Under the pieces are notes generated by a model. That model saw nothing but the letters and a program-made list of their open reading frames with translations. It was not told where the DNA came from and did not search any database. A stretch of DNA of 64,000 nt from Gammaproteobacteria bacterium HGW-Gammaproteobacteria-1 (GTDB lineage Bacteria > Pseudomonadota > Gammaproteobacteria > Thiohalomonadales > Thiohalomonadaceae): assembly GCA_002840095.1 (NCBI GenBank), contig PGZL01000008.1, positions 310,001 through 374,000 of the forward strand, given 5' to 3'. A program made the translations under genes and the position numbers. This document shows positions 18,018 through 39,805 of the stretch, one piece after another; position 1 is the stretch's first letter, and each line of letters begins with the position of its first letter.

Positions 18018-18150
18018 CCGTCCCGGCGATCCGTCGTGCGCGGCATCGCCCAAGTGTGCGACCGCAGTTCAAGGGGCCTGCCGGTGTTTGTTGAAAACGT
18101 TGGTTTGGATTAGATTGATAGGCATTGTCTATGTATGGAAGAAGCCGGCG

Positions 18151-19056
18151 ATGAACCTGCGCGATCTGGAATATCTGGTGGCCCTGGACGAGGAACAGCA
18201 TTTCCACCGTGCCGCCGAGCGCTGCTTCGTCAGCCAGCCGACCCTGAGCGGCCAGATCAAGAAGCTGGAGGAAACCCTCGGCGTGATGCTGGTGGAGCGC
18301 GGCCGCCAGGTGCGCATGACCGAGGCCGGGCGGCTGGTGGCGGCCCAGGCGCGGCGCGTGCTCACCGAGGCGCGTGGGGTGAAGGAGATCGCCACCACCT
18401 TCCGCGACCCCATGGCCGGGCGGCTGCAGCTGGGCGTGATTCCCACCATCGCCCCTTATCTGCTGCCGCTGTTCGTGCCGCGCCTGCACAAGCGCCATCC
18501 GCGCCTGCAACTGTTCCTGCACGAACACCAGACTTCGGTATTGCTGGACAAGCTGCGCAACGGCGATCTCGACCTGCTGCTGCTGGCCCTGCCGGTGGAG
18601 ACCGACGAGTTCGAGGAGATCAATCTGTATCAGGAGCCCTTCCTGCTCAGCGTGCCCACCGGGCATCCCGATCTCGCCAAGGTGAAGGCGGCGGGGCTGG
18701 AGCATCTCCATGGCCAGGAAGTGCTGCTGCTGGCGGAGGGCCACTGCCTGCGCGGCCAGGCGCTGGACGTCTGCCTGCTGGGGGGGGCCAGCGAGTACAG
18801 CGGATTTCGCGGCACCAGCCTGGAGACCGTGCGCCAGATGGTGGCCGAGGGCATCGGCATCACCCTGATGCCGCAGCTGGCCCAAGGCAAGGAAAAGACC
18901 ATCCGCTACATCCCCTTCGCCGACCCGGTGCCGACCCGCCGCATCGGCCTGCTCCACCGCAGCGGCAGTTACCGCACCGAGGCCTTTGCCGCCGTGGCGC
19001 AGGCGGTACGCGAGGCGGTGGCGCCGGTGCTGGGTGAGCGCTGGATTGTGGAGTAG
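18151..19056 (+). CDS. oxyR: OxyR, LysR-family peroxide sensor
   Basis: MNLRDLEYLVALDEEQHFHRAAERCFVSQPTLSGQIKKLEE and GHCLRGQALDVC redox cysteines. Confidence 0.9.
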   Translation: MNLRDLEYLVALDEEQHFHRAAERCFVSQPTLSGQIKKLEETLGVMLVERGRQVRMTEAGRLVAAQARRVLTEARGVKEIATTFRDPMAGRLQLGVIPTIAPYLLPLFVPRLHKRHPRLQLFLHEHQTSVLLDKLRNGDLDLLLLALPVETDEFEEINLYQEPFLLSVPTGHPDLAKVKAAGLEHLHGQEVLLLAEGHCLRGQALDVCLLGGASEYSGFRGTSLETVRQMVAEGIGITLMPQLAQGKEKTIRYIPFADPVPTRRIGLLHRSGSYRTEAFAAVAQAVREAVAPVLGERWIVE

Positions 19057-19069
19057 CCGTAAAGCTCGG

Positions 19070-19169
19070 TCCGCAAATGGACGCAAATCGTTTCGTTGCC
19101 GCTATGGGACGATTTCGGCCCCCATGCAATCACTTATTTCATTTGCGTTTATTCGCGTTCATTTGCGGA
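19070..19169. repeat. Intergenic inverted repeat
   Basis: TCCGCAAATGGACGCAAAT ... ATTTGCGTTTATTCGCGTTCATTTGCGGA; left arm lacks 10 nt relative to right arm. Confidence 0.7.
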
Positions 19170-19224
19170 TCAAGCCTTTGATCTGTCGTGCCCGATGTCG
19201 TTGCGCTGTATCGGGTCTACGATA

Positions 19225-19261
19225 ATAGGAATTGGCTATCAATTTTATAGCAATAAACGAT
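19225..19261 (+). promoter_or_regulatory. OxyR binding site
   Basis: ATAG-N7-CTAT-N7-ATAG-N7-CGAT, 15/16 of the four-tetramer consensus, upstream of rubrerythrin. Confidence 0.85.
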
Positions 19262-19340
19262 TAGAGCTATTTGTTGTGTTTCCGTAACCTTCTCTCCGTG
19301 CCGCAGCCCAGCGGATTCAAACCAACACGGAGAGCAAGAC

Positions 19341-19856: not shown

Positions 19857-20021
19857 ATGAAAAAGTTCCAGTGCATCGTTTGCGGTTACATCTACGACGA
19901 AGCGGCCGGCGACCCGGCGGAAGGTTTCGCCCCCGGCACCCGCTGGGCCGACATTCCCGACGATTGGGAATGCCCGGAGTGCGGTGTGGCCAAGGCCGAC
20001 TTCGAGATGGTGGAGATTTAA
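19857..20021 (+). CDS. Rubredoxin (54 aa)
   Basis: [54 protein letters not shown]; two CxxCG motifs; below the ORF-track length cutoff. Confidence 0.97.
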
Positions 20022-20030
20022 GACTTTGTC

Positions 20031-20125
20031 GCGGAGACGCAGAGACGCGGAGTTTTCACAGCGGAGAGCCCGCTGCAGAGGTGCGAAGTTCACGGCGTGA
20101 CCTCTGCGCCTCTGCGTCTCCGCGC
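20031..20125. repeat. Dispersed inverted repeat, family C copy 3
   Basis: GCGGAGACGCAGAGACGCGGAG ... CTCTGCGCCTCTGCGTCTCCGCGC. Confidence 0.75.
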
Positions 20126-20179: not shown

Positions 20180-21316
20180 ATGCACCCCATCGTCATCATC
20201 GGTACCGGCCTGGCCGGTTACACCCTGGCGCGCGAATTGCGCAAGCTGGACAGCATCACGCCGCTGGTCATGATCACCGCGGACGACGGCGGCTTCTATT
20301 CCAAGCCGATGCTGTCCAACGCGTTGCTGCGCGGCAAGACACCGGCGCAACTGATCAGCGCCGATGCCGCGAAGATGGCGGCGGACATCAATGCGGTGAT
20401 CAGGGTGCGTACACAGGTGGAGGCCATCGACACAGTCGCGCATACGGTCACGGCGAACGGCGAAACCATTCATTACTCGCGCCTGGTGCTGGCGGTGGGC
20501 GCACGCCCGATCCGTTTGCCGCTGGAGGGCGACGGCGCTGACGACGTGCTGACGGTGAACAGCCTGGATGATTACGCGCGGTTTCATGCGCAAGTGCAGG
20601 GCGCACGGCGCGTGGCGGTCATCGGTCCCGGCCTCATCGGCTGCGAGTTCGCCAACGACCTCGCCGGTGCCGGCCACGCGGTGACTGTCATCGGTCCCGA
20701 TCCCCATCCGCTCGGCCGCCTGTTGCCCGCCGAGGCGGGTAATGCGGTGCGGGATGCCCTGAGTGCGGTCGGCATCCAGTGGCGGCTGGGTACGGTGGTG
20801 TCGCGGGTCGAGCGTGACGGCGGCGCCTATCGGCTGTTGCTGGCCGATGGCAGCGAGGTCCATGCCGACGTGGTGCTGTCCGCCATCGGTTTGCAGGCCG
20901 ACACGCGGCTGGCGCAGCAGGCCGGCCTGACGGTCAATCGCGGTATCGTGGTGAACGGTCAGCTGCGCACCAGCGCGGAGGATACGTATGCCCTGGGGGA
21001 TTGCGCCGAGGTGAACGGCGTCGTATTGCCCTTCGTGCTGCCGCTGATGGAGCAGGCGCGCACCCTGGCGGCGGTGCTGGCCGGACGCGAGGCGGCGGTG
21101 AACTACCCGCCCATGCCGGTGGCGGTGAAGACCCCGGCCTGTCCGGTGGTGGTGGCACCGCCGGCGCCGGGCAGCGGCGGCCAGTGGCAGGTGCAGGCGG
21201 ACGGCGAAGGCGTGCGGGCGGAATTCGTCGACGGCACGCTGTTGCGCGGCTTTGCCCTTACCGGCGCCGCCATCTCCGCCAAGCAGGCACTGGTGAAGCA
21301 ACTGGCGGCGCTGTAA
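20180..21316 (+). CDS. Rubredoxin-NAD(+) reductase-like FAD oxidoreductase
   Basis: IIGTGLAGYTLARELRKLD, VAVIGPGLIGCEFANDL, YALGDCAEVNG; follows rubredoxin. Confidence 0.85.
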   Translation: MHPIVIIGTGLAGYTLARELRKLDSITPLVMITADDGGFYSKPMLSNALLRGKTPAQLISADAAKMAADINAVIRVRTQVEAIDTVAHTVTANGETIHYSRLVLAVGARPIRLPLEGDGADDVLTVNSLDDYARFHAQVQGARRVAVIGPGLIGCEFANDLAGAGHAVTVIGPDPHPLGRLLPAEAGNAVRDALSAVGIQWRLGTVVSRVERDGGAYRLLLADGSEVHADVVLSAIGLQADTRLAQQAGLTVNRGIVVNGQLRTSAEDTYALGDCAEVNGVVLPFVLPLMEQARTLAAVLAGREAAVNYPPMPVAVKTPACPVVVAPPAPGSGGQWQVQADGEGVRAEFVDGTLLRGFALTGAAISAKQALVKQLAAL

Positions 21317-38010: not shown

Positions 38011-38137
38011 CCGCCGAGACGCAGAGCACGCGGAGAACAGCCGGGAAGCCGGCGGTGCCGGACTATGAGCCGCTCAAATCGCGTTGTCGCAATACTCGCA
38101 GTTCGGTTTTCTCTGCGTTCTCTGCGCCTCTGCGGCG
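38011..38137. repeat. Dispersed inverted repeat, family C copy 6
   Basis: CCGCCGAGACGCAGAGCACGCGGAG ... CTCTGCGTTCTCTGCGCCTCTGCGGCG. Confidence 0.65.
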
Positions 38138-38156
38138 AGGCTTTTGTCAGACGGCC

Positions 38157-38579
38157 TTACTGTCCGAGGGTGTCCAGGGCCTTCTGGAAGCGGTTGGCGT
38201 GGGAGCGCTCCGCCTTGGCCAGGGTTTCGAACCAGTCGGCGATTTCGTCGAAGCCTTCCGTGCGGGCGGTCTTGGCCATGCCCGGATACATGTCGGTGTA
38301 CTCGTGGGTTTCGCCCGCGATGGCCGTCTTCAGGTTGTCGCCGGTGGGGCCGAAGGGGAGGCCGGTGGCAGGGTCGCCGCACTGTTCCAGGTATTCCAGG
38401 TGGCCGTGGGCATGGCCGGTTTCGCCTTCCGCGGTGGAGCGGAACACGGCGGCCACGTCGTTGTAGCCCTCCACGTCGGCCTTGGCGGCGAAATAGAGGT
38501 AGCGGCGATTGGCCTGGGATTCTCCCGCGAAAGCCTCTTTCAGGCTGGTTTCGGTCTTGCTGCCTTTCAGGTTTGCCAT
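38157..38579 (-). CDS. Rubrerythrin family protein
   Basis: [45 protein letters not shown]. Confidence 0.9.
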
Positions 38580-38886: not shown

Positions 38887-38950
38887 ATATGAGGAAATAA
38901 GTTCCGAGTTCCGGCGTTGTAGATTTCAAAAAGTCACGACACGATATTGC

Positions 38951-39112
38951 CGAAACTCGAAACTCGAAACTCGAAACTCGAAACTCGAAACTCGAAACTC
39001 GAAACTCGAAACTCGAAACTCGAAACTCGAAACTCGAAACTCGAACTCGAAACTCGAAACTCGAAACTCGAAACTCGAAACTCGAAACTCGAAACTCGAA
39101 ACTCGAAACTCG
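38951..39112. repeat. Heptanucleotide tandem repeat (CGAAACT)n
   Basis: 13 perfect CGAAACT units, one 6-nt unit CGAACT at 39042, 9 more perfect units, then CG. Confidence 0.97.
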
Positions 39113-39114
39113 TC

Positions 39115-39721: not shown

Positions 39722-39805
39722 GATTCAAAATTCAAGGTTCAAGGTTCAAGATTCAGGGTTCAGGGTTCAGGGTTCAGGGTTCAGGGTTCAGGGTTCAGGG
39801 TTCAG
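39722..39805. repeat. Heptanucleotide tandem repeat (GGTTCAG/GGTTCAA)n
   Basis: 12 consecutive 7-nt units from GATTCAA to GGTTCAG. Confidence 0.95.

Follow-up and report, generated by a model that had tools for sequence, protein, structure and literature searches.

Introduction

Among the closest described systems is the OxyR regulon of E. coli and Pseudomonas aeruginosa, where a LysR-type OxyR carrying C199 and C208 goes together with four operator blocks at an 11-bp period, for which the consensus ATAG-N7-CTAT-N7-ATAG-N7-CTAT is used (PMC5720770). In Desulfovibrio vulgaris (perR-rbr-rdl) and Geobacter (perR-rbr-roo), a peroxide sensor gene lies beside the rubrerythrin/rubredoxin operon, with this sensor being the Fur-family repressor PerR (PMC545781). 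Sulerythrin, ferriperoxin, and the aerobic-type lineage are rubrerythrins with a single ferritin-like domain and no rubredoxin domain; the last is the lineage of PMC5114695, which ties rbr to no regulator and leaves OxyR unmentioned. Finally, the NorW and Rbx_binding rubredoxin reductases combine a Pyr_redox_2 domain with PF18113.

The locus described here, part of a 64-kb stretch of DNA that we call the window, shares traits with all of these systems. It has the same four blocks, 11-bp period, and C199/C208-bearing OxyR as the E. coli and P. aeruginosa regulon, and katG (plus a peroxiredoxin in one congener) is likewise among the predicted targets in its genus; however, the target adjoining oxyR is here a rubrerythrin–rubredoxin–reductase operon, which, to our knowledge, E. 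coli does not possess. As in Desulfovibrio and Geobacter, a peroxide sensor gene stands beside the rubrerythrin operon, but the sensor is OxyR, with an unrelated operator. The rubrerythrin also has a single ferritin-like domain, like sulerythrin and ferriperoxin, whereas rubredoxin and reductase are here separate genes of the operon, and the presumed partner of the reductase is rubredoxin rather than the flavorubredoxin of NorW. From the sequence and its conservation, we consider it highly probable that OxyR regulates the rbr-rd-reductase operon through the operator between oxyR and rbr (Table 1), and induction of the operon by H2O2 is very likely.

Table 1. Features of the oxyR-rbr region, numbered from the first letter of the window.
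Feature	Position	Strand	Basis or remarks
Weaker OxyR-like site upstream of oxyR	18096..18132	-	4 mismatches, 24.8 bits
oxyR, LysR-type H2O2 sensor, 301 aa, C199 and C208 present	18151..19056	+	Domains, equivalog score, cysteines
OxyR operator, four blocks ATAG-N7-CTAT-N7-ATAG-N7-CGAT (predicted)	19225..19261	+	15/16 consensus match and conservation
-35, TTAGAG, abutting operator block 4	19261..19266	+	Presumed; TTRGA positionally conserved in relatives
-10, TAACCT, weak, 18 nt after -35	19285..19290	+	Presumed; TANNAT position conserved in relatives
5' leader hairpin	19292..19334	+	CTCTCCGTG (19292-19300) pairs with CACGGAGAG (19326-19334)
rbr, rubrerythrin without rubredoxin domain, 157 aa	19341..19814	+	Family search, candidate di-iron ligands
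rd, rubredoxin, 54 aa, two CxxC	19857..20021	+	PF00301
Rubredoxin reductase homologue, 378 aa, Pyr_redox_2 and C-terminal Rbx_binding PF18113	20180..21316	+	

The Predicted Operator and Its Regulator

The operator reads ATAGGAATTGGCTATCAATTTTATAGCAATAAACGAT, with the blocks ATAG, CTAT, ATAG, and CGAT set at 11-bp spacing by the spacers GAATTGG, CAATTTT, and CAATAAA, and the sole mismatch among the 16 block positions is the CGAT of block 4 in place of CTAT. The 15/16 match claimed in the preliminary description is exact, and the placement it gave is equally correct, the gene order being oxyR, site, rbr, rd, and reductase. With up to three mismatches allowed, the 64-kb window holds one match against a shuffle mean of 0.01, and no other match with at most one mismatch occurs in the 4.2-Mb genome; a reversed control pattern gave one genome match at up to three mismatches. 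A weight matrix trained on sites of other genera only, its own genus being left out, gives the operator 39.6 bits and the top rank in the window, with the next unrelated window match at 3.5; the reverse-complement reading of the same operator (8.6 bits) was set aside.

The regulator contains both the LysR helix-turn-helix domain PF00126 and the LysR substrate-binding domain PF03466, passes the NCBIfam OxyR equivalog PRK11151 (336.7 bits against a cut-off of 329), and carries its redox cysteines at positions 199 and 208. By these marks, the gene adjoining the operator is a true OxyR, and it is the single OxyR of the genome, the next LysR protein being only 28% identical. In the tree it groups with E. 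coli OxyR (99/95), but on long branches, and we do not press this grouping. The weaker site upstream of oxyR corresponds in place to a site of 39.1 bits in the congener G001, where a peroxiredoxin gene and oxyR diverge from it; the window neighbor is now a different gene, and the site is probably autoregulatory for oxyR.

The rbr-rd-Reductase Operon

The rubrerythrin belongs to the broad family PF02915 (57.1 bits against 22.8), with E19, E52/H55, E82/E85, and E115/H119 as candidate di-iron ligands and sulerythrin as its nearest solved relative. It is not a classical two-domain rubrerythrin, since it scores 60.5 against 200 bits for NCBIfam RuberyRbr and has no C-terminal rubredoxin domain. The rubredoxin scores 83.9 bits with PF00301, its cysteines being C6, C9, C39, and C42, and the reductase, with PF07992 and PF18113 (96.1 bits), is a pyridine nucleotide flavoprotein with a rubredoxin-binding C-terminus that falls below the NCBIfam NorW equivalog cut-off (343.6 against 392 bits). 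The complete chain that had been proposed is thus present at the gene level; its labels “NADH” and “peroxide reductase” would follow from family membership, and a rubrerythrin-type peroxidase chain is what these genes most naturally suggest.

It might be argued that the operator serves rbr and rd only and that the reductase is transcribed separately, given that a 158-nt gap containing a 23-nt inverted repeat lies ahead of the reductase gene, which could therefore have a promoter of its own. We regard this as unlikely, because the reductase is found downstream in 66 of 69 relatives (rubredoxin follows rbr in all 81 loci), and because the gap yielded no promoter-like match and only one terminator-like match, not beyond chance, against 1.9 expected. 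Within the reductase gene itself, position 20247 gave a promoter-like match at chance level, which was set aside.

In the operon region, the two intergenic gaps are filled by imperfect inverted repeats of the dispersed-repeat type, at 20030-20124 (23-nt arms) and 19061-19178 (28-nt arms). Similar GCAGAGACGC repeats occur elsewhere in the window, and the congener G003 (L002) has one adjoining its operator.

Promoter, Leader, and Proposed Mechanism

When the loci are aligned on the site, their consensus runs on as AACAATC-ATTRGA and then shows TANNAT at the distance of a -10 element, so block 4 abuts the -35 element. The promoter in the window is weak, as expected where an activator is needed. 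OxyR acts as both activator and repressor in some bacteria, and the operator touches the -35 element, so a real OxyR operator at which reduced OxyR mainly represses rbr, with derepression in place of activation, might be considered; however, this arrangement, in which four blocks adjoin the -35 element of a weak promoter, is classical for an activator, and the -10 element here is weak, which makes this second reading quite improbable and activation by OxyR more likely than repression.

In the activation mechanism that we propose, OxyR would sit on the four ATAG/CTAT blocks of the rbr promoter, H2O2 would oxidize C199 and C208 to a disulfide, and oxidized OxyR would recruit RNA polymerase to the weak promoter. 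Electrons would then pass from NAD(P)H through the flavoprotein reductase and rubredoxin to rubrerythrin and H2O2, and peroxide would be removed by this chain without O2 release. The sequences themselves show the site, how it is conserved and set in register with the promoter, the OxyR cysteines, and the order of the genes; we infer OxyR binding, activation, co-transcription past the rd-reductase repeat, the coenzyme, and the peroxidase activity.

The 5' leader may add a further layer of control. CACGGAGAG contains the rbr Shine–Dalgarno sequence, while CTCTCCGTG is the presumed 5' end of the mRNA, and the leader folds at -19.7 kcal/mol (z -3.6); no known RNA family was found in it. Similar pairings with other letters occur in loci of several other lineages (TGACCTCC/GGAGGTCA, ATTCGCTCC/GGAGCGAAT, and GATGATCTCC/GGAGATCATC), and a leader hairpin is significant (p<0.05) in 13 of the 48 loci without a divergent oxyR, where shuffles lead one to expect about 2, these loci being partly related. 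In the divergent loci, it is significant in only 3 of 36, which is not an excess. These data are suggestive of a hairpin that hides the rbr ribosome-binding site.

Conservation in the Genus and across Beta- and Gammaproteobacteria

Three of the four other genomes of the genus have the operon with the site before rbr (1–2 mismatches), and the fourth, which is 84% complete, has no close rbr. Across the four genus sites, 14 of the 16 block positions are invariant against 8 of the 21 spacer positions, and in G003 the blocks are kept even though a dispersed repeat has apparently taken the place of the sequence upstream of the site.

Scanning of genome contigs turned up 80 loci that encode a close rubrerythrin. 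With the genus loci counted in, 77 loci have enough upstream sequence, and in 54 of them rbr has an OxyR-type gene as its immediate neighbor. An OxyR-type gene is co-directional with rbr, as in the window, in 23 loci and divergent in 36, and C199 and C208 are present in all 59 rbr-linked regulators. Of the 23 co-directional loci, 21 carry a site of at most four mismatches 105–133 bp before rbr, against 0.2 expected, and a site with the same mismatch limit precedes rbr in 14 of the 25 loci without an adjacent oxyR, against 0.1 expected; the operator is thus kept ahead of orthologous promoters, and this conservation, in the genus and in beta- and gammaproteobacteria at large, supports the predicted control of the rbr operon by OxyR that had been claimed for this site. 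An accidental or relic match, with rbr under another control such as a PerR-type regulator like that of deltaproteobacteria, would agree with the PerR control predicted for rbr in Desulfovibrio and Geobacter (PMC545781) and with the Fur/PerR-type palindromes of the second rubrerythrin of the window, but it is hardly credible given blocks conserved while spacers drift, the same register in nearly all co-directional loci, the linkage to oxyR, and an oxyR-rbr intergenic sequence in which no 7-1-7 palindrome was seen by eye. The rbr-linked OxyRs are spread over several OxyR lineages, so the oxyR-rbr pairing probably arose more than once.

Proposed Retargeting of Operators in the Divergent Loci

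When ATAG/CTAT blocks were sought in the 36 divergent loci, they appeared little above chance, and these loci were re-anchored on the -35 element instead of on ATAG. Anchored on the promoter, they keep the 11-bp layout but have other letters in the blocks. For comparison, in class A the recognition helix SQPTLS goes with ATAG-N7-CTAT (AG..CT in 20 of 22); in class B, (T/G)QSTLS goes with ATCG-N7-CGAT or AGAT (CG in block 1 in 21 of 28); and in class C, SQPALS goes with ATTT-N7-AAAT (TT..AA in 6 of 8). Class B is hosted by Burkholderiales, Polynucleobacter, and Chromatiaceae MAGs, and class C by the Gallionella group; both divergent classes keep the register to the -35 and have C199/C208 intact. 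The changed-helix regulators and the ATCG/CGAT or ATTT/AAAT blocks co-occur in loci L055 and L066-L124.

In the tree, class B forms one clade and class C falls within the classical OxyR clade, so there have been few independent operator switches. More than one OxyR-like protein was found in 5 of 14 sampled genomes, and several of these genomes include a classical OxyR; since some genomes keep a classical OxyR elsewhere, the retargeted ones would be rbr-linked sensors insulated from the main regulon. We give an even chance to the full picture, in which the rbr operon was put under OxyR-type sensors several times, including two divergently encoded lineages with retargeted operators insulated from the main OxyR regulon, together with a leader hairpin hiding the ribosome-binding site.

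Other Predicted OxyR Targets and the Second Rubrerythrin

No monofunctional catalase (PF00199) was found in the genus, and katG is present. Before katG, OxyR-like sites score 30.2 bits in G001 and 25.4 bits in G002, and degenerate ones occupy the same place in G003 (12.2 bits) and the source genome (1.2 bits), so katG also seems to be an OxyR target in the genus, with a strong site in two congeners and a weak one in the source genome. The earlier statement that OxyR would control more than catalase-type genes therefore holds. A peroxiredoxin is preceded by an OxyR-like site in one congener (G001). Four genus members retain an OxyR-like site ahead of a DUF2061-DUF4250 operon, at 39.0–47.4 bits, and most DUF2061 loci of other gammaproteobacterial families have one at the same distance, which makes DUF2061(-DUF4250), of uncharacterized function, a candidate OxyR target. 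These sites stand about 90–130 bp before the gene (L162-L173), and those of the genus are in L032, L036, L039, and L045.

A second rubrerythrin, of the aerobic type, is encoded at 38133-38579 on the reverse strand beside a presumed rubrerythrin-associated Fe-S oxidoreductase gene, as read from the sequence, and it appears to be the typical aerobic-type cluster of PMC5114695. Two TTAGACNNNRTCTAA palindromes (7-1-7, Fur/PerR type) precede it, and the same palindrome lies ahead of relatives in 10 other loci, so each of the two rubrerythrins of the window may respond to a peroxide sensor of its own. In the same region, tandem repeats of about 9 bp (CGAAACTCG) form a long run at 38950-39113, and a further GGTTCAGGGTTCA run starts near 39740.

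Concluding Remarks

An OxyR regulon is of a known kind, while rbr as a conserved OxyR neighbor and target in beta- and gammaproteobacteria seems little documented. Described rubrerythrins are, in the literature covered, tied to anaerobes and PerR; OxyR control of a rubrerythrin–rubredoxin–reductase operon, including the betaproteobacterial oxyR-rbr, was not found in the open-licence literature, which is weak evidence of novelty. The retargeting of operator and helix in the divergent OxyR lineages is the novel part, and this co-variation offers a natural test of what sets OxyR DNA specificity. The conserved site before DUF2061 would place an uncharacterized membrane protein in the peroxide response. 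A predicted OxyR-controlled, O2-free peroxidase operon in a genome that has no monofunctional catalase shows how the removal of peroxide could be divided between katG and rubrerythrin in proteobacteria.
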